From: Streptomyces stelliscabiei | GTDB lineage: Bacteria; Actinomycetota; Actinomycetes; Streptomycetales; Streptomycetaceae | Assembly (NCBI RefSeq): GCF_014873495.1 | Contig: NZ_JADBGF010000001.1 | Span: forward strand, 2,790,001 to 2,854,000 | Direction of reading: 5' to 3' | DNA length: 64,000 nucleotides | Shown here: piece after piece, positions 9,952 through 39,102 of the stretch | Layout of the letters: every line of letters begins with the position of its first letter | Numbering within the stretch: position 1 is the first letter of the stretch | Made by a program: the position numbers and the translations under genes | Notes under the pieces: generated by a model | What the model was told of the DNA's origin: nothing | Database searches by the model: none | Seen by the model: the letters and a program-made list of their open reading frames with translations, nothing else

Positions 9952-10407
9952 TTACTGATCCAGTGACGGTACGTCGGAACCGGCGCCGCTCCCGACGCCT
10001 TCCACGGCCTTGAGGACGTCCTCGTCGAAGCAGGTGCGGGCGCCGGTGTGGCAGGCGGCGCCGACCTGGTCGACCTTGACGAGGACGGTGTCGGCGTCGC
10101 AGTCCAGGCTGACGGACTTCACCCACTGGAAGTGACCGGAGGTGTCGCCCTTCACCCAGTACTCACGGCGGCTGCGCGACCAGTACGTGCAGCGGCCGGT
10201 GGTGAGCGTGCGGTGCAGGGCCTCGTCGTCCATCCAGCCGAGCATGAGCACCTCACCGGTGTCGTACTGCTGGGCGATGGCGGGCAGGAGCCCGTCGACG
10301 CCGCGCTTGAGGCGGGCGGCGATCTCGGGGTCCAGCACGCTGGGCGTGCCGGGACCGGCGGGGGCTCCGGGACCGTGGGGGCTGCTGGAGGACGGCGTGC
10401 TGGTCAT
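9952..10407 (-). CDS. hisI: Phosphoribosyl-AMP cyclohydrolase
   Basis: About 151 residues. It hydrolyses PR-AMP to ProFAR in histidine synthesis and is Zn/Mg dependent. The core motifs [33 protein letters not shown] and [14 protein letters not shown] are present, as are the metal Cys residues in [12 protein letters not shown]. The N-terminus (about 25 residues) is a Ser/Pro/Gly-rich extension. ATG 10407 is chosen; ATG 10416 would add three residues. It is cotranscribed with trpE just downstream, joining his and trp genes in one unit. Confidence 0.95.
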
Positions 10408-19053: not shown

Positions 19054-20064
19054 ATGGGGCCGCTGCGCGCGCTCGTGCGTACCGTCCGGATGGCACGTCA
19101 CACCTCCCGGCTCGCCGTCGGCCTGGTCGCCGACGACGAGGTACTGCTCGACGCCCCCGACGAACGGCTCGGACCCGCGCTGGTGGCGGCGGGCCGCGGT
19201 GAGTACGCGCCGGCGGCGAAGCTGCTGGCGACCACCCGGGAGGCCGCCGAGTGGGAGAACCGCGACCGGTACGCGTTACGCCTCGCCACCTTCGCCCACG
19301 CGCGCGACGCGTGGCTGCGGGCCTGGCACGCGGCCGCCCCGCACGACCCGGACGTCCTGCTGATCAGGGCCGAGCTGGCGGTGGCCCGCGGCTGGGACTC
19401 CCCCGCCCGGGTCGAACTGCTGCGCGAGGTCGGCCCGTTGGTCGCCGCGGCCGCGGAGGGCGAGCCGCGCGACCCGGTGCCCTGGCGGATCGCGCTCGAC
19501 CACGCCCGGGGCACGGGCCTCGGCCACACCGGGTTCGAGCGGCTGTGGGCGGAGGCGGTCCGTCGCTCCCCGCACCACTACGGATGTCATGTATCGGCCC
19601 TGAAGTACCTCTCGGCCGCCTGGTACGGCTCGCACCGCGAGTGCTTCGACTTCGCCGAGCGGGCCGCCGAGGACGCGCTGCCCGGCTCCCTCGTCCGGGC
19701 CCTGCCGGTCCGGGCGGCGCTGGCGTACCTCACCGAGGACGGCGGTGCCGTGATCCCGCGCGCGCGGCTGGACGAGGCGGCGGACGGCGCGATCGCTCTC
19801 TCCGCCGAGTACGCGCCGGGCGATCCCTGGCCCGCGGAGGTCCGCAACCTGCTGACCTACGTCCTGGTCCGCCTGGAACGCTGGCCGGACGCGCTGGCCC
19901 AGCTGCGCATGATCGGCCCGTACGCCACGTCCTTCCCGTGGGACCGGATGTCCGACGATCCGCTGGGCCAGTTCCTGCAGCTGCGGGACGGCGTGCGGCT
20001 CGAAGTGGCGTGCTCGATCCCGCTGCGCGCACGGCCCGAGCGGCCGGGACGGGCCGCAGGATAG
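19054..20064 (+). CDS. Helical-repeat (TPR-like) protein with a TTA codon
   Basis: About 336 residues, mostly alpha-helical with Ala/Arg/Leu-rich helices resembling tetratricopeptide units (RAELAVARGWDSPARVELL, WRIALDHARGTGLGHTGFE, YLSAAWYGSHRECFDFAERA). No catalytic motif is seen; function unknown. The ATG at 19054 has AAGGGGG upstream. An in-frame ATG at 18898 has GGAGG seven bases upstream, but the extra 52 codons use A/T-ending codons unlike the rest. Codon 75 (19276-19278) is TTA, the rare Leu codon read by the bldA tRNA, so expression may depend on bldA and thus on development. Confidence 0.7.
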   Translation: MGPLRALVRTVRMARHTSRLAVGLVADDEVLLDAPDERLGPALVAAGRGEYAPAAKLLATTREAAEWENRDRYALRLATFAHARDAWLRAWHAAAPHDPDVLLIRAELAVARGWDSPARVELLREVGPLVAAAAEGEPRDPVPWRIALDHARGTGLGHTGFERLWAEAVRRSPHHYGCHVSALKYLSAAWYGSHRECFDFAERAAEDALPGSLVRALPVRAALAYLTEDGGAVIPRARLDEAADGAIALSAEYAPGDPWPAEVRNLLTYVLVRLERWPDALAQLRMIGPYATSFPWDRMSDDPLGQFLQLRDGVRLEVACSIPLRARPERPGRAAG

Positions 20065-20120
20065 CGTCCGCCGGAGGTCACCAAACGAGTACGGACGAAC
20101 GCGCGCGCCCCGACGACCAT

Positions 20121-26136: not shown

Positions 26137-29100
26137 TCAGCCGGCCAGGCAGGACGGACCGAGCAGCACCTTCAGATCGCCGAACAGGGCCGGGTCGGGC
26201 TTCACCCGGTGCCGGTCCAGGCGCAGCACGGTCGTCTTGGTGGGGCCCTGGAGCCGGATCCGGACCTCGCTGTCGCCCTTGTGGTGGGTCAGGATCTCGC
26301 CGAGCCGGCTGACCATGGGCGGGGTGACACGGGTGGCCGGGATGGTGAGGATCACCGGCGCGTTGGTGCCCGCGTTCGACAGGTCGGGGACCTGCATCTC
26401 CATGGCGACCAGCCGCGGCACCTCCTCGCGCTTGTCGAGGCGGCCCTTCACGAAGACGACCGCGTCCTCGACGAGTTGGGTCGAGACGAGCTGGTAGGAC
26501 GCCGGGAAGAACATGCACTCGATGGAACCGGCGAGGTCCTCCACGGTGGCGATGGCCCAGGCGTTGCCCTGCTTGGTCATCTTGCGCTGGAGGCCGGAGA
26601 TGATGCCGCCGATGGTGACGACCGCGCCGTCCGCGTGCTCGCCGCCGGTGAGCTGGGCGATACCCGCGTCGGCCTTGTCGGAGAGCACGTGCTCCAGACC
26701 GAAGAGGGGGTGGTCGGAGACGTAGAGGCCGAGCATCTCCCGCTCCTGGGCGAGGAGATAGGTCTTCTCCCACTCGTCGGTGGTGAACTCGACGTCGAGT
26801 CCGAAGCCCGGCTCGCTGCTCTCCTCCTCGCCCATGCCGCCGAAGAGGTCGAACTGGCCCTCGGCCTCCTTGCGCTTGACCGCGACCACGTTGTCGATCA
26901 TCGAGTCGAAGTGCGCGGTGAGGCCCTTGCGGGTGTGCCCCATCGTGTCGAAGGCGCCCGCCTTGATCAGCGACTCGGTGGTGCGCTTGTTGCAGGCGAC
27001 GGCCTCGACCTTGTCGAGGTAGTCGGGGAAGGAGGCGTACTTCCCCTTGGCCTTGCGGCTGCGGATGATCGACTCGACCACGTTCGTACCGACGTTGCGC
27101 ACGGCTTCGAGGCCGAAGAGGATCACGTCGTCGCCCTGGGCGGCGAAGTTGTGCTCGGACTCGTTGACGTTCGGCGGGAGCACCTTGATGCGCATGCGGC
27201 GGCACTCGTTGAGGTAGACCGCCGACTTGTCCTTGTCGTCCTTGACCGAGGTGAGCAGCGCGGCCATGTACTCGGCCGGGTAGTTCGCCTTGAGGTACGC
27301 GGTCCAGTAGGAGACCAGTCCGTACGCGGCGGAGTGGGCCTTGTTGAAGGCGTAGCCGGCGAAGGGGACCAGGACGTCCCACAGGGCCTGGATGGCCTCG
27401 TCGCTGTAGCCGTTCTTCTGGGCGCCGGCCTGGAAGATGGTGAAGTTCTTCGCCAGCTCGTCGGGCTTCTTCTTGCCCATCACGCGGCGCAGGATGTCGG
27501 CCTCGCCGAGCGAGTACCCGGCGATGATCTGGGCGGCCTTCTGCACCTGCTCCTGGTAGACGATCAGGCCGTAGGTGACCGCGAGGACCTCCTGGAGCGG
27601 CTCCTCCAGCTCCTTGTGGATCGGGGTGATCTCCTGGCGGCCGTTCTTGCGCTCGGCGTAGTTGATGTGCGAGTTCATGCCCATCGGGCCCGGTCGGTAC
27701 AGGGCCGAGACGGCGGAGATGTCCTCGAAGTTGTCGGGCTGCATCTGGCGGAGCAGGGAGCGCATCGGGCCGCCGTCGAACTGGAAGACGCCGAGGGTGT
27801 CACCGCGGCAGAGCAGTTCGAAGGTCTTGGGGTCGTCCAGCGGGAGGGCGAGCATCTCCAGGTCGATGCCCTTGTTGGCCTTCACCATCTTGATGGCGTC
27901 GTCCATGATCGTGAGGTTGCGCAGGCCCAGGAAGTCCATCTTCAGCAGGCCGAGCGACTCGCACTGCGGGTAGTCCCACTGGGTGATCGTCACGCCGTCG
28001 GTGTGCCGCACCCAGATCGGGGCGTGGTCGACGATGGGCTCGCTGGACATGATCACGCCGGCCGCGTGCACACCCATCTGCCGGACCAGGCCCTCGACGC
28101 CCTTGGCGGTGTCGATGACCTTCTTCACGTCCGGTTCGTTCTCGTACATCGACCGGATCTCGCCCGCCTCGCTGTAGCGCGGGTGGGAGGGGTCGGTGAT
28201 GCCGTTGAGGTCGATGCCCTTGCCGAGGACGTCGGCGGGCATCGCCTTGGTGAGCCGGTCGCCCATCGCGTACGGGTAGCCCAGCACGCGCGCGGAGTCC
28301 TTGATGGCGTTCTTCGCCTTGATCTTGCCGTAGGTGCCGATCATGGCGACCTTGTCGGCGCCGTACTTCTCGGTGACGTACCGGATCACCTCGACGCGCC
28401 TGCGCTCGTCGAAGTCGATGTCGACATCGGGCATGGAGACGCGCTCGGGGTTGAGGAACCGCTCGAAGATCAGGCCGTGCGGGATCGGGTCGAGGTCGGT
28501 GATGCCCATGGCGTACGCGACGATCGAGCCGGCGGCGGAACCGCGGCCGGGGCCGACCGCGATGCCCTGGCTCTTGGCCCACATGATGAAGTCCGCGACG
28601 ACGAGGAAGTACCCCGGGAACCCCATCTGGATGATGACGTCCATCTCGTACTCGGCCTGCTTCTGCCGGTCGTCGGGGATGCCGCCGGGGAAGCGGCGCT
28701 CCATCCCCCGGCGGACCTCCTCCTGGAACCAGGTGACCTCGGTGAAGCCGTCGGGGATGTCGAACTTCGGCATGAGGTTCTTGGCCTCGAACATGCCGGA
28801 GGTGTCGATCTGCTCGGCGACCAGCAGGGTGTTGGCACAGCCCTCCTGCCAGGCGTCCGAGGAGTCGACGGCGTACATCTCCTCGGTGGACTTCAGGTAG
28901 TAGCCGGTGCCGTCGAACTTGAAGCGGTCCGGGTCGGAGAGGTTCTTGCCGGTCTGGATGCACAGCAGCGCGTCGTGCGCGGTCGCCTCGTGCGCGTACG
29001 TGTAGTGCGAGTCGTTCGTGACCAGCGGCGGGATGCCGAGCTTCTTGCCGACGCGGAGCAGGTCCTCGCGGACCCGGTGCTCGATGTCGATGCCGTGGTC

Positions 29101-29676
29101 CATCAGCTCCAGGAAGTAGCGGTCCTTGCCGAAGATGTCCTGGTACTCCGAGGCCGCCTTCACCGCCTCGTCGAACTGGCCGAGGCGCAGCCGGGTCTGC
29201 AACTCGCCGGAGGGGCAGCCGGTGGAGGCGATGAGCCCCTCGGACCACTGGGAGATGGTCTCCTTGTCCATGCGGGGCCACTTCTGCAGCCAGCCCTCGG
29301 CGTACGCGTCGGAGGAGAGCTTGAAGAGGTTGTGCAGGCCCGTCCTGTTCGCCGCCCAGATCGTCTTGTGCGTGTAACCACCCGAACCGGACACGTCGTC
29401 GCGCTTCTGGTGCGGCTGGCCCCACTGGATCTTGCGCTTGTTGCGCCGGGACTCGGGGGCGACGTACGCCTCGATGCCGATGATCGGGGTGACGCCGGCC
29501 TTCTTGGCGGTGTGGAAGAAGTCGTAGGCCCCGTGGAGGTTGCCGTGGTCGGACATCGCGATGTGGGTCATGCCCATCTCGTTGCACGCGTTGAACATGT
29601 CCTTGAGCCGCGCGGCACCGTCCAGCAGCGAGTACTGGGTGTGGACGTGCAGGTGCGTGAACGGCGGCTTTGACAC
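26137..29676 (-). CDS. dnaE: DNA polymerase III alpha subunit (replicative)
   Basis: 1179 residues. The N-terminal PHP domain starts FTHLHVHTQYSLLDGAA with intact His residues; in actinobacterial DnaE1 this domain provides 3'-5' proofreading. The palm has GPGRGSAAGSIVAYAMGI and PDVDIDFDERRR near residue 415, which hold catalytic Asp residues. The C-terminal OB fold (VTIGGIISGLQRKMTKQGNAWAIA) binds DNA. The GTG at 29676 (VSKPPFTHL) has GGAGG eight bases upstream. A -10-like TAGACT lies at 29763-29768. This is the essential replicative enzyme rather than the DnaE2 mutator type. Confidence 0.97.
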   Translation of the reverse strand: MSKPPFTHLHVHTQYSLLDGAARLKDMFNACNEMGMTHIAMSDHGNLHGAYDFFHTAKKAGVTPIIGIEAYVAPESRRNKRKIQWGQPHQKRDDVSGSGGYTHKTIWAANRTGLHNLFKLSSDAYAEGWLQKWPRMDKETISQWSEGLIASTGCPSGELQTRLRLGQFDEAVKAASEYQDIFGKDRYFLELMDHGIDIEHRVREDLLRVGKKLGIPPLVTNDSHYTYAHEATAHDALLCIQTGKNLSDPDRFKFDGTGYYLKSTEEMYAVDSSDAWQEGCANTLLVAEQIDTSGMFEAKNLMPKFDIPDGFTEVTWFQEEVRRGMERRFPGGIPDDRQKQAEYEMDVIIQMGFPGYFLVVADFIMWAKSQGIAVGPGRGSAAGSIVAYAMGITDLDPIPHGLIFERFLNPERVSMPDVDIDFDERRRVEVIRYVTEKYGADKVAMIGTYGKIKAKNAIKDSARVLGYPYAMGDRLTKAMPADVLGKGIDLNGITDPSHPRYSEAGEIRSMYENEPDVKKVIDTAKGVEGLVRQMGVHAAGVIMSSEPIVDHAPIWVRHTDGVTITQWDYPQCESLGLLKMDFLGLRNLTIMDDAIKMVKANKGIDLEMLALPLDDPKTFELLCRGDTLGVFQFDGGPMRSLLRQMQPDNFEDISAVSALYRPGPMGMNSHINYAERKNGRQEITPIHKELEEPLQEVLAVTYGLIVYQEQVQKAAQIIAGYSLGEADILRRVMGKKKPDELAKNFTIFQAGAQKNGYSDEAIQALWDVLVPFAGYAFNKAHSAAYGLVSYWTAYLKANYPAEYMAALLTSVKDDKDKSAVYLNECRRMRIKVLPPNVNESEHNFAAQGDDVILFGLEAVRNVGTNVVESIIRSRKAKGKYASFPDYLDKVEAVACNKRTTESLIKAGAFDTMGHTRKGLTAHFDSMIDNVVAVKRKEAEGQFDLFGGMGEEESSEPGFGLDVEFTTDEWEKTYLLAQEREMLGLYVSDHPLFGLEHVLSDKADAGIAQLTGGEHADGAVVTIGGIISGLQRKMTKQGNAWAIATVEDLAGSIECMFFPASYQLVSTQLVEDAVVFVKGRLDKREEVPRLVAMEMQVPDLSNAGTNAPVILTIPATRVTPPMVSRLGEILTHHKGDSEVRIRLQGPTKTTVLRLDRHRVKPDPALFGDLKVLLGPSCLAG

Positions 29677-29762
29677 GGCTTCGGCCTCCAAGGGACACAA
29701 CAGGGGAAACAGGCGTGAACGGCATCCCCACGGGCTACGGACAGTCTGGGGGACAGCGTCGA

Positions 29763-33021: not shown

Positions 33022-33654
33022 CTACGGCGCGATGTACGGCTTCACGCGCTTGCGGTAGTCCTCGGCACGGACCTCGTTGTAGTACTTGTCGGCGTCCTCG
33101 TCGTCCGAGGTGAAGATGTAGACCGGGCACTCGTCGGACTCGGCCTTGCCCTTGTACGCGTACTGCTCCTTGCCGGTGCGCGCCTCGACGACCCGCACCC
33201 GGTACGAGGTGTTGTACGTCCGGATCTTCAGCGGCTTGCCGTCGGCCTCCATGTCGCAGACCTTGCCGGTCGCGGTGGCCTTCGTGCGCTCGACGCAGAC
33301 GACCAGCTCCGCCTCCTCCGGCTTGTCCTCGTAGCCGAGGAACCAGCCCTTGGGGAAGTCGCCGTCGACGGGCACGCTGCTCGTCCAGCCGTCGCCGGTG
33401 CTGTTCATGAGCTGCGCCGGGTGCACGGTCTTCTTCGCCCGGTCGTAGGCCGGCAGCCCTTCGAAGCCGAGCCCGTCCGAGCAGACCCGCTCCAGGTCCT
33501 GGGTCGTCACCGGGACCTCCGGTTCGTCCGCGGCGGCCCCGCCCGACGACGATCCGCCGCCGCTCCCGGCCCCCGTGGTCGCGGCGGGTGACGAACACCC
33601 GCACAGGACCGCGCCCAGCACTCCTGCGGCGACCCAGATCCGGGCACGCTGCAT
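33022..33654 (-). CDS. Secreted lipoprotein of unknown function
   Basis: A 210-residue protein. The signal peptide MQRARIWVAAGVLGAVLCGC ends with a lipobox-type Cys (C20), followed by a Gly/Ser linker (GAGSGGGSSSGG). The mature domain has four Cys residues (VCSDGLG, LVVCVER, KVCDMEAD, ECPVYIF) that may form two disulphides. No enzyme motif is seen. It would be processed by Lgt and LspA, both encoded in this window, and could be a client of the nearby DsbA-like protein. The ATG at 33654 has GGGAGG five bases upstream. Confidence 0.8.
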   Translation of the reverse strand: MQRARIWVAAGVLGAVLCGCSSPAATTGAGSGGGSSSGGAAADEPEVPVTTQDLERVCSDGLGFEGLPAYDRAKKTVHPAQLMNSTGDGWTSSVPVDGDFPKGWFLGYEDKPEEAELVVCVERTKATATGKVCDMEADGKPLKIRTYNTSYRVRVVEARTGKEQYAYKGKAESDECPVYIFTSDDEDADKYYNEVRAEDYRKRVKPYIAP

Positions 33655-33687
33655 GACGACCTCCCTGCCGAAAGAAAAAGAGGCAGG

Positions 33688-33716
33688 CAGGGCATGTCCC
33701 CCCGGGTCATGCCCTG
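33688..33716. promoter_or_regulatory. Perfect inverted repeat before the lipoprotein gene
   Basis: CAGGGCATG (33688-33696) and CATGCCCTG (33708-33716) flank an 11-base spacer. The site is about 35 bases upstream of the lipoprotein start, between it and the divergent regulator gene. It could be an operator or an RNA hairpin in the leader. Confidence 0.4.
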
Positions 33717-33816
33717 TCCCCCCTGCCCTGCCGAACAGAAGCCTGCCGGACGCCGGGCCCCCGGATATCGGGGAAGATCCCCCATGTAGTGGTGCGACCC
33801 CCGGGGAAGTGGGGGC

Positions 33817-33822
33817 TACCCT
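33817..33822 (+). promoter_or_regulatory. -10-like TACCCT upstream of the LuxR-type regulator
   Basis: TACCCT in the setting GGGGGCTACCCTG is a common Streptomyces -10 form. Transcription would start near 33829, which argues against a translation start at 33789 and for one at 33927 or 33945. Confidence 0.4.
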
Positions 33823-33944
33823 GTACGCGCCTCGAAGGCGCATTCGAGGGGTGCCCGGCGGGGGTTGCGTACGGGGGCGTACGCGGGTTGCCACGACCAT
33901 CCCGACAGGGCGCAGGGGGCCTGCAGTTGTCGTCGTTCTCTTCG

Positions 33945-36900
33945 ATGCCGTCGTCGTTCTCCTCGACGCGGTCCTCGGCGTACTCGTCGGTTCCGGCGTT
34001 CTCGCCCTTCTCGTCCCTCACGTCCTTCTCGTCGTTGTCGTCGCCCGCTCCGGTGGGCAGACAGGCGGAGCGGGACCTGCTGACGGCTGCCGTCGGGGCG
34101 GCCCGGGACGGTCGGGGTTCGTCGGTGTTCGTGCTGGGCGAGCCCGGTATCGGCAAGTCCCGGCTCGTCGAGGACGCCGCGGCGGCCGCCGCCGCTGCCG
34201 GGGCACGGGTCCTGCGCGGGCGCGCCGCGTCCGCCGGGCGGGCCGTGCCCCTGCGTCCGCTGGCGGAGGCGGTGTTCTCGGGGTTACGGGGCGAGGGGGC
34301 GCCCTCGGGCGGGGATCTGGGCTTCTACGAACCGCTGTTGTCCCGGCTGTGCGGGCTGGCACCGCAGGACGGCGCCCCGCTCGTCGGGTACGCCGAGGCG
34401 GTGCTCCGGCTCCTGCACGTCCTCGGCCGGGAGGGCGGCTGCGTCCTGGTGCTGGAGGATCTGCACGACGCGGACGCCGACACGCTCGCCATCGTCGACT
34501 ATCTGACGGACAACCTCTCCGGCCAGCGTGCCGTGCTGCTGGCCACCCTGCGCGGCGAGCCCGGCCCGGCGCTCGCCCTCGCCGAGGGCGCCACGTCCCG
34601 TCGTACGGCCCGCACGGTCCGCCTCGCCCGCCTCGGGCCGGGCGGCACCGCCGAGCTGGCCGCCCGGTGTCTGGGCCACGACACCGCCGAGGACGTCCCG
34701 GCGGCGGTGCTGGACCGGCTGCACACCGTGTCCGAGGGCGTTCCCTTCGTGGTGGAGGAACTGCTGCGGGCCATGGTCGACGGCGGCGGTCTCGTCCGGG
34801 ACGACTCCCGCTGGGCGGTGACCGGCTCGCTGGACGCCGGCGTGCCCGACACCGTCGCCGCCGCCGTCCTGCAGCGCGTGGACCAGCTGCCGGCGGCCGG
34901 CATCGCCCTGCTGGAGGCGGCGGCGGTCCTCGGCAGACGCTTTCCCGTGGACATCGCCGCCCGCGCGGCGGGCCTGGACCACGCCACCGCCCTCACCCAG
35001 CTCCGCCACGCGGCCCACGCCCACCTGGTCTCCGACGCCACCACCGCGTCGGATCCCGGCTGGCACACCTTCCGCCACGCCCTCACCGCCGACGCCATCA
35101 CCCGCCGCCTCCTCCCGCCGGAGCGCACGGCCCTGTGTCTGGCGGCGGCGGACGCGATCGAGGCGGCGAAGGGGGTGGGGCGTCAGGAGGCGAGCGCCGG
35201 CGGTCCGGGCTTCGACCGGGCAGGCCTCGACGCGGCGGACCTTGCCGAGGCGGACCTTGCCGAGGCGGGCCTCGAAGGGACGACCGCCGACGGGACCGAT
35301 CCGACACGCCCGAGCAGCTGGGACGGACGCGGCGAACACGAGGGCGGCGGGAGCCACCGTGTCGGCCTCTCCTCCGGGTCGGACCACCCCCGCCGGCGCC
35401 TGGGCGGAGACGCCGACGACGACCTGTACCGGCTCGCCGCGGAGCTGTGCGTGGCCGGAGGGCGGTCGGCGCGGGCGGCCGTGCTGCTCGTCCGGGCCGG
35501 GCGCCAGGCGGTCGCGCGGGGTGCGTTGCTGACGGCCGTGGAACTCCTCGACCGGGGTCTGGAGCTGACCGCCGACACACCGGACGCACCGCCCGAGGCC
35601 GTGGCCCGGCTGCTGGAGGAACTGCTCGACACGCTGGTCCTCACCGGAGACGTACGGCGCGTGCCCGAGCTGGGAGACCGGCTGGACCGGGTCCTGACGG
35701 TCTCGGGCGCGCCGGCCACGCGCCGGGCGGCGGGCTTCCTGGCCCGCGCGCGGGCCGCCGCGACCGCCCAGCAGTGGGAGGGCGGCCTGACCGCCGTACG
35801 TCGGGCGAGGGAGCTGCTCGGCGACACGCCCGACCCGGCGGCCCGCGCGGCCCTGGACGCGGTCGCCGCCCACCTGGTGCTCAACTCGCAGCGCCCGGAC
35901 CGGCTGGAGGGCGCCCGTGCGCTCGCCGAGGGCGCCGTCGCGACCGCCGAGGAGGTGGGGCTGCCGGAGGTGGCGTGCAAGGCGCTGAACATGCTCGGCT
36001 ACTGCCTGCGGCCCCGGGACCTCGGCGAGGCGGAGGACGCGTTCGCCCGGCTGGTCGCCACCGCCGAGGCCCACGCGCTGCCGGTGTGGCGGATCCGCGG
36101 CCTGCTGGAACTGGGCGTGCTCGACCGTGTCCGGTTCACCGGCACGGACCGGCTGCTCGCCGCCCGCGCGGCCGCCGAGGACACCGGCGCGGTGCTCCTG
36201 ACGGCCTGGGCCGACATGCACCTGACCCTGGCCCACATCCTGCGCGACGAACACGACCGGGCGACGGAGTCCGCGCGCCGGCTCCGGGCGACGGCCCGCA
36301 GACTGCGGCTGCGCGAGGTGGAGCTGATCGGCGTCGGCGTGGACGGCATCATCGCCGCCTCGCTCGGGGAGCGGGAGAAGCTCGACGCCACCCTGCGCAC
36401 CCTGGAGCGCGCACTCGCCGGGCGGAGCGCCGGGGCCCTGTGGGGCTACGCCGACACCTCCGTGTGGGGCTGGGCCCAGGGCATCTGCTCCCTGCTGCGG
36501 GAGGAACCCGACCGCGCGCTGGCCGAGTTCACGGAGGCGGACGGGGTCATGCGGGCACTGCCCAGCACCGGTGGCGTGACCGGCTTCCTCGGCCCGTACC
36601 TCCTCCTGCGCACCCTGCGCGGCACGGCCGACTGGGGCGACCTGGACGGCCCCGGCACCGAACGGCTCGCCCAGGTCCAGTGGGACCGCCCCTTCGCCGG
36701 CTGGTCCCGAGCCGTCCTGCTGGGCCGCGAGGGCCGCGCCGCCGAGGCCGCCAAGGCGGCGGAGGAGGCGCTGACCGGCACCGCCGGGATCCCCCTGGCC
36801 GCGCATCTCTGTCTGCGCCTGGGTGCCGAGGCCGCGCTCGCCGACGGCTGGGGCCGGCCCGTCGAATGGCTGCGTGCCGCCGAGCAGTTCTTCCACGAGC

Positions 36901-37205
36901 GGGGCACGACCCGCGTGTCGGCCGCGTGCCGGGCGCTGTTGCGCGACGCGGGCTCCCCCGTGCCCCGCCGCCGCCGGGGCCACGACACCATCCCGGCAGA
37001 GCTGCGGCGCGCGGGGGTGACCGCACGGGAGTACGAGGTCCTGCGGCTGCTCGGTGCCCGGCTGGGCAACCAGGAGATCGCCGAGCACCTGTTCCTCTCC
37101 CCCCGCACCGTCGAGAAGCACCTCGCCAGCCTCCGTGACCGCACCGGCCGCCCCGACCGCGCCGCCCTGATCGCACTGGCCAGGAAATACGCCGACGAGC
37201 GGTGA
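33945..37205 (+). CDS. Large ATP-binding LuxR family regulator (LAL type) with a TTA codon
   Basis: About 1086 residues. A Ser/Phe-rich N-terminal stretch is followed by an AAA-type ATPase with Walker A GEPGIGKS (residues 65-72) and Walker [15 protein letters not shown] long helical, TPR-like middle comes next, and a C-terminal LuxR helix-turn-helix (LTAREYEVL type, [20 protein letters not shown]). LAL regulators often activate secondary metabolism or sugar genes. Codon 114 (34284-34286) is TTA, so translation may need the bldA tRNA. The start is uncertain: ATG 33945 has no clear Shine-Dalgarno, while a TTG at 33927 follows AGGGGG. The target genes are unknown. Confidence 0.88.
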
Positions 37206-37425: not shown

Positions 37426-39102
37426 GTGACCAGTCGCAGATCTCACTCCCGCCCCGACTCCCCCGCCCAGCCCACGGGTTCGGCCGCCCCGAGTCGCCGT
37501 ACGGTCGTCAAGGCGGCCGCCGCCGGGGCCGTTCTCGCCGCGCCGCTCGCCGCCGTGATCCCGGCACACGCGGCGCAGTCCCCCGCCTTCCTGCACGGGG
37601 TCGCCTCCGGCGACCCGCTGCCCGACGGTGTCCTGCTGTGGACCCGGGTGACGCCCACCGCCGCCGCGATACCCGGTTCCGGTCTCGGCCCGGACATCGA
37701 GGTCGGCTGGACCGTCGCCCTGGACAAGGCGTTCACGAACATCGTCGCCAAGGGCTCGACGACCGCGACCGCCGCCTCCGACCACACCGTCAAGGCCGAC
37801 GTCCGCGGCCTGCTGCCCGCCACGAACTACTGGTTCCGCTTCTCGGCCGGCGGCACCGACTCGCCCGCCGCCCGCACCCGCACCGCCCCGGCCGCCGACG
37901 CCACCACCGCCAACCTGCGCTTCGGCGTGGTCTCCTGCGCCAACTGGGAGGGCGGCCACTTCTCCGCCTACCGCCATCTGGCCGCGCGCGGCGACCTGGA
38001 CGCCTGGCTGCACCTCGGCGACTACATCTACGAGTACGGCACCGGCGAGTACGCCACCCGCGGCAAGGTCGTACGCCCGCACGCGCCGACCCACGAGATC
38101 GTCTCCCTCGCGGACTACCGCGTCCGGCACGCCCGCTACAAGACCGACCCGGATCTGCAGGCCCTGCACGCGGTCGCGCCGGTCGTGGCCATCTGGGACG
38201 ACCACGAGATCGCCAACGACGCGTGGTCGGGCGGCGCCGAGAACCACACCGAGGGCGCGGAAGGCACCTGGGCGGCCCGGAAGGCGGCGGCCAAGCAGGC
38301 GTACTTCGAGTGGATGCCGGTGCGCCCGGCGCTCGCGGGCACCACCTACCGCCGTCTGCGCTTCGGCAAGCTCGTCGACCTCTCCCTGCTGGACCTGCGC
38401 TCGTTCCGCTCGCAGCAGGTGGGCGTGGGCGACGGCGAGGTCGACGACCCGGACCGTACGCTGACGGGCCGGGCCCAGCTCGACTGGCTGAAGGCCGGGC
38501 TGAAGTCGTCCGACACGACGTGGCGGCTGGTCGGCAACTCGGTGATGATGGCGCCGTTCGCCCTCGGCAACCTCACGGCCGACCTCTTCGAGCCCCTCGC
38601 GGAGCTGCTCGGTCTGCCGAAGGAGGGCCTCGCCCTCAACCCCGACCAGTGGGACGGCTACACCGACGACCGCCGCGAACTCCTCGCCCATCTACGGCAG
38701 AACGCGATCGGCAACACGGTCTTCCTCACCGGCGACATCCACATGGCCTGGGCCAACGACGTACCGGTCAACGCCGGGACGTACCCGCTGTCGGCCTCCG
38801 CCGCCACCGAGTTCGTGGTCACCTCGGTCACCTCCGACAACCTCGACGACCTCGTCAAGGTCCCCGAGGGCACCGTCTCCGCGCTGGCCTCCCCGCTCAT
38901 CCGCGCCGCCAACCGGCATGTGCACTGGGTCGACACCGACCGCCACGGCTACGGCGTGCTGGACATCACCGCCGCGCGGGCCCAGATGGACTTCTACGTC
39001 CTCTCCGACCGTACGAAGCCCGACGCGACGTCCTCCTGGGCACGCTCGTACCGGACCCGGAGCGGAACCCAGAAGGTGGAGCGGACGTACGACCCCGTGT
39101 AG
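37426..39102 (+). CDS. phoD: PhoD-type alkaline phosphatase/phosphodiesterase, Tat-secreted
   Basis: 558 residues. A twin-arginine signal peptide has SRRTVVK at residues 23-29, then a hydrophobic Ala-rich core and an AHA cleavage site near residue 48. A PhoD N-terminal Fn3-like domain follows ([20 protein letters not shown]). The metallophosphatase core has [29 protein letters not shown] and LTGDIHMAW, with the Asp, His and Asn ligands for Fe/Ca. It releases phosphate from extracellular phosphoesters. The S. coelicolor counterpart is in the PhoP regulon. The downstream gene is convergent only 23 bases away. Confidence 0.93.

Follow-up and report, generated by a model that had tools for sequence, protein, structure and literature searches.

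A TTA-containing LAL regulator gene and its divergent lipoprotein gene in Streptomyces stelliscabiei as a candidate bldA-gated local module

The stretch of DNA analysed here, called the window throughout, comprises 64,000 nucleotides of Streptomyces stelliscabiei (contig NZ_JADBGF010000001.1, positions 2,790,001 to 2,854,000). It contains a long plus-strand open reading frame (ORF) that extends from stop to stop over 33657-37205 and has the codon bias typical of Streptomyces. According to its domains, the encoded protein is a LAL regulator, i.e. it has the architecture of the ATP-binding LuxR family. Pfam placed AAA_16 at residues 36-194 (E 2.8e-22) and GerE, the LuxR-type helix-turn-helix (HTH) domain, at the C-terminus (residues 1026-1078, E 3e-9), and the Walker A motif GEPGIGKS is present in the translation. 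The gene carries a TTA codon and faces away from a lipoprotein gene, from which it is separated by an intergenic region of 270 bases. The features of the locus are as follows.

33022..33654, minus strand: lipoprotein gene, divergent from the LAL gene and its constant partner; 210 amino acids (aa), lipobox LCGC
33688..33716, between the divergent genes: inverted repeat CAGGGCATG-N11-CATGCCCTG, a candidate operator, from the alignment
33767..33790, intergenic: second conserved block, ATCGGGGAAGATCCCCCATGTAGT in its window form, a candidate promoter or operator element, from the alignment
33831..33848, intergenic: third conserved block, CTCGAAGGCGCATTCGAG, an imperfectly conserved inverted repeat, from the alignment
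33927..37205, plus strand: LAL-type regulator gene, from ORF and codon statistics, Pfam and the alignment of orthologues at the start
34284..34286, plus strand: in-frame TTA codon inside the AAA_16 domain, residue 114 when counted from ATG 33945

Counted from ATG 33945, the LAL protein is 1086 aa long, and both the sequence and the ORF confirmed the claim of an earlier note on this DNA that the TTA at 34284-34286 is in frame and forms codon 114. However, translation is likely to begin at TTG 33927, with ATG 33945 as the alternative. The TTG sits 5 bases 3' of CGCAGGGGGCC, which is purine-rich and conserved in the orthologue alignment, and it aligns with the GTG starts of S. torulosus, S. neyagawaensis and sp. 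MA5143a (L032, L033, L045). Since these GTG starts and CGCAGGGGGCC favour TTG 33927, the TTA is probably codon 120; the numbering from ATG 33945 is kept below. Two further stretches of the LAL gene were conspicuous. The N-terminal part (33945-34050) is Ser/Phe-rich, is encoded by repeated TCGTC-type DNA and has expanded in the scab clade; between the ATPase and the C-terminal region lies an insert of low complexity with GACCTTGCCGAGGCG repeats (about 35170-35420).

Wherever an orthologous locus includes upstream sequence, the lipoprotein gene adjoins the LAL gene, the one exception being S. cavernae (L037). Strong matches to the lipoprotein were found, among 76 Streptomyces genomes, only in the two genomes with a close LAL orthologue. 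No Pfam or NCBIfam family matched the lipoprotein, and its predicted structure (mean pLDDT, the predicted local distance difference test score, of 46) was of too low confidence for a fold search. In the window the pair lies between the genes 26137-29691 and 37555-39102, and in the phaeochromogenes clade it is found at quite different chromosomal places. The LAL gene and the divergent lipoprotein gene (33022-33926) thus form a two-gene module that occupies differing chromosomal sites in different Streptomyces clades.

The arms CAGGGCATG and CATGCCCTG of the inverted repeat are invariant across 18 aligned loci, with a spacer of N9-17. In all 10 genomes searched there was one such site per genome, always at the LAL locus, and none appeared in 100 shuffles of the window. 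In the intergenic region there was no match to the AdpA consensus and none to a sigma-70 promoter or a terminator. Because the lipoprotein partner is constant and the once-per-genome repeat lies between the two genes, the target of LAL is probably local, and the simplest reading of the repeat is as the candidate operator of a purely local regulator. The earlier note had spoken of unknown targets; these can be narrowed to one strong candidate on sequence grounds, namely the divergent lipoprotein gene together with LAL's own promoter.

The main alternative is that the repeat folds into an RNA hairpin within the leader at the 5' end of the lipoprotein mRNA. It might also be the site of another regulator, and either possibility would be compatible with any reading of the TTA codon. 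The arms, 34-62 bases 5' of the lipoprotein start codon, can pair to a strong hairpin (minimum free energy of the leader predicted at -41.8 kcal/mol, z -2.4), and the spacer varies in length, as a loop might, while the arms stay constant; a spacer of 9 to 17 bases is also unusual for a single dimer operator, which counts against an operator of LAL. On the other hand, the arms are invariant and no compensatory changes were seen, which argues that the repeat is read by sequence recognition. Moreover, Rfam gave no match at the gathering score, and the site is retained at the S. cavernae locus, for which no adjoining lipoprotein gene was found. We regard the hairpin or foreign site as a rather unlikely explanation and retain the LAL operator as the preferred one.

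The TTA codon was evaluated against a 400-kb sample of the same genome, on which all genome codon statistics rest. In this sample TTA accounted for 11 of 101,408 codons and was present in 10 of 322 genes (about 3%). At that rate 0.12 TTA codons are expected in a gene of 1086 codons, roughly a 1-in-9 chance, so a single TTA in the LAL gene lies within chance. The statement that this is one of only two TTA genes in the window was borne out for the 55 genes called by a codon-model gene caller. Since two of 55 (3.6%) equals the genome rate, there is no local enrichment, and taken alone the codon is unremarkable. The second TTA gene is 19054-20064 (TTA at codon 75); its product of 336 aa matched no Pfam or NCBIfam family, and it is located directly upstream of a gene for a LON substrate-binding domain. 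A TTA at 20120 was rejected as the second one of the window because it precedes the called start of its ORF. Likewise rejected was TTA followed by C as a special bldA context: C follows 35 of 38 TTA codons, yet GTA (86%) and CTA (75%) are similarly biased, while the other NNA codons show this bias less strongly (window and L109-L128).

A different picture emerged when the LAL gene was compared with its orthologues from 19 further species (74-93% identity over the best segment), drawn from a collection with one genome per species, which makes 20 genomes with the window. L242 (G106), apparently the same genome as L036, was not counted as an additional species, and the LAL gene of S. turgidiscabies was only partly covered. 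At least one TTA was present in 13 of the 20 orthologues, in total 15 TTA codons at six positions (codons 87, 114, 167, 524, 560 and 624). Besides the window, only S. scabiei, S. europaeiscabiei and sp. MNU76 (together L031, L039 and L043) have TTA at codon 114; TTA-114 thus belongs to the clade of scab species. The same codon is CTA in S. caniscabiei (L042), TTG in S. neyagawaensis and CTG in the other orthologues covering it. Nine further genomes have TTA at other LAL codons: codon 87 is TTA in five species, codon 524 in three, and codons 167, 560 and 624 in one each. The LAL gene of sp. MNU76 (L043:9001-12205) is split over two frames, the first of which stops at 10105, owing to a frameshift or an assembly error.

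The gene tree revealed how these positions alternate. TTA-87 is spread over the phyllanthi-phaeochromogenes clade, but the lacrimifluminis group nested in it is without TTA-87 and has TTA-524 instead. Within the latter group, SID12488 has CTA at codon 524 and TTA at codon 167, where its sisters have GTA. Such a pattern suggests turnover under selection, as it is what this process would give.

In the neighbourhood and in the kin of the gene, TTA was scarce. The flanking genes at the same loci contained one TTA in 71,338 codons (one of 216 genes), and two paralogous LAL families of the same species, taken as controls with seeds from the same genome, had TTA in 1/18 and 2/25 members. When each distinct TTA position was counted as one gain, the LAL orthologues had six gains in 20,276 codons and the controls four in 112,595 (binomial p 0.0015; leaving out the seed codon 114 raised it to 0.006). 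With TTA set against the other rare Leu codons, the Fisher p was 0.007 with the genome sample as reference and 0.03 with the two control families. CTA, CTT and TTG were not raised in the LAL alignment over the control families, whereas TTA alone was; thus a general loss of codon bias fails to explain the TTA codons.

Several observations nevertheless weigh against selection and would fit a neutral TTA in a long, weakly expressed gene under loose codon selection, with recurrence arising from sampling and shared ancestry. Shared ancestry shrinks the 13 TTA genes to about six gains, and the p-values range from 0.0015 to 0.066 depending on the control, the last being the Fisher value against the control families without the seed. 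TTA-114 occurs in 4 of the 19 genomes covering the site, confined to one clade; conservation at the same position, which marks adpA, the best-known bldA-dependent member, was not found, although it is not a requirement. Seven of the 20 genomes showed no TTA in the sequence covered, among them S. caniscabiei, sp. uw30 and all members of the S. torulosus clade, and thus UUA is not essential to the module. The retention of TTA-114 is unexceptional and within the range of other NNA codons, as the window gene has 35 NNA codons, of which 11 are retained in at least 3/4 relatives; among its other rare Leu codons the figure is 0/6. The low expectation of 0.12 also leaves room for a chance origin. Against neutrality stand the rise of TTA alone among the rare Leu codons, its near absence from the flanking and paralogous LAL genes of the same species, and its distribution in distant homologues of about 40% identity, where TTA is present in 15 of 25 genes from Streptomyces, as against 5 of 49 from other actinobacterial genera. 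We consider a neutral origin possible, though on balance doubtful. Altogether, the alignments lend moderate support to, and suggest, selection for UUA dependence with turnover of the codon position.

The genome can decode UUA in the bldA manner: ARAGORN found a bldA-type tRNA-Leu gene with the anticodon TAA (G000:C1:4451807-4451831), the sole match in the genome to the general pattern for that tRNA. A link between the regulator and bldA, as proposed in the earlier note, has thereby been strengthened, both by the presence of this tRNA gene and by the finding that 13 of 20 orthologues carry TTA, spread over six positions, whereas the proposed timing, with LAL synthesis only late in growth, is something we infer. 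Because TTA recurs in the orthologues and is nearly missing from flanking genes and paralogues, gating is likelier here than for a random TTA.

The UUA could also be read adequately without mature bldA tRNA, in which case the codon would be ungated and at most lower the yield. Translation of UUA without bldA is documented: in a bldA mutant of S. ghanaensis an adpA UUA reporter was 15-fold reduced, not abolished (PMC3814723), which speaks against a strict gate. In contrast, the UUA genes rmdB and moeE5 were off or nearly off without bldA (PMC7026642, PMC3814723). Among the UUA genes tested so far, strict bldA dependence is usual, not universal (PMC7026642, PMC3814723). That TTA recurs among the orthologues suggests an effect of the codon, and we judge ungated reading to be improbable.

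The model which we favour, by a modest degree, is that of a bldA-gated local regulator of an envelope lipoprotein. The LAL mRNA has its UUA inside the region coding for the ATPase domain, and before charged tRNA-Leu(UAA) of the bldA type appears, translation would stall there, so that no HTH-bearing protein is made. Once this tRNA accumulates, LAL could be completed and would switch both the regulator and its lipoprotein partner. It would do so at the shared intergenic region, acting through the inverted repeat on its own promoter and on the divergent lipoprotein gene. Since any in-frame position gives an equal gate, the UUA would be free to move, and a lineage would keep some UUA in the LAL gene but no fixed codon. 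What we infer in this model is that translation is gated, that LAL binds the repeat, and in which direction it regulates. A more far-reaching version, which we put forward tentatively and hold to be short of even probability, is that selection on the whole gene keeps the module under tRNA-Leu(UAA) while TTA codons are lost and regained elsewhere; the LAL and lipoprotein genes would then constitute a relocatable, bldA-gated two-gene envelope switch with a genome-unique repeat.

Opinions differ on the TTA codons of Streptomyces, which may be selected gates or rare codons that drift. The LAL gene of the window is an unusually clear case in which positional turnover of TTA is combined with a concrete local target. 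One gene with TTA at six places among close relatives, some of which are without it, represents a natural test series, and the genome-unique repeat together with the constant lipoprotein offers one concrete candidate promoter in place of unnamed targets. No paper on the LAL-lipoprotein pair was found in the literature searched, which was mostly without subscription journals. The module appears to be undescribed, whereas the kind of system is known: TTA codons in regulators, their frequent loss among orthologues, and orthogroups with variable TTA positions have already been described (PMC4255298, PMC10327506).

Among the distant homologues, one main Streptomyces group sits in lanthipeptide loci (L264 and relatives, about 40% identity). 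These proteins have the same domains as the window LAL, and TTA is frequent in them in Streptomyces, but they adjoin LanM-like, RamC-like and SARP genes. In a tree of a slightly reduced set of the homologues they form a separate clade, and therefore they do not represent the same gene, despite the same TTA habit. In L264-L269 a LanM-like lanthipeptide synthetase gene and a SARP gene flank the LAL gene, and a RamC-like kinase is encoded nearby (domains from L264 only); similar gene orders recur in other Streptomyces, where the LAL gene often has TTA. That the distant Streptomyces homologues are orthologues of SCO4263 was considered and rejected, as SCO4263 has 1251 aa and no ATP motif (PMC3282765) and the homologues inspected lie in lanthipeptide loci.

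Like the window LAL, SCO0877 and SCO7173 have the ATP-binding LuxR architecture and are not cluster-bound (PMC3282765); they are, however, pleiotropic, and we saw neither a divergent lipoprotein gene nor a private inverted repeat reported for them. A TTA-bearing pathway regulator from the same species group as the window is txtR of S. scabies, for which bldA gating has been proposed (PMC5332605), but it controls thaxtomin genes, and a connection with the LAL gene was neither seen nor looked for. The precedent for the model is SCO4263/slpR of S. coelicolor and S. lividans, likewise a TTA-bearing LuxR-type regulator, through which the genes beside it come under the control of bldA (PMC2000904, PMC8505568). 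Its orthologues frequently have TTA as well (8/11; PMC4255298 Table 2). SCO4263 differs in its length of 1251 aa, in having no ATP-binding motif in the LuxR table (PMC3282765) and in controlling a cluster for a contractile injection system, whereas the window LAL is of the ATPase type and lies beside a single lipoprotein gene. Finally, a survey of 213 Streptomyces species reported 18 orthogroups with TTA at any position versus 11 with TTA at a fixed position (PMC10327506). The window module, limited to few clades, is probably not listed there, but those orthogroups resemble the window LAL in that TTA is kept in the gene while its place is not.
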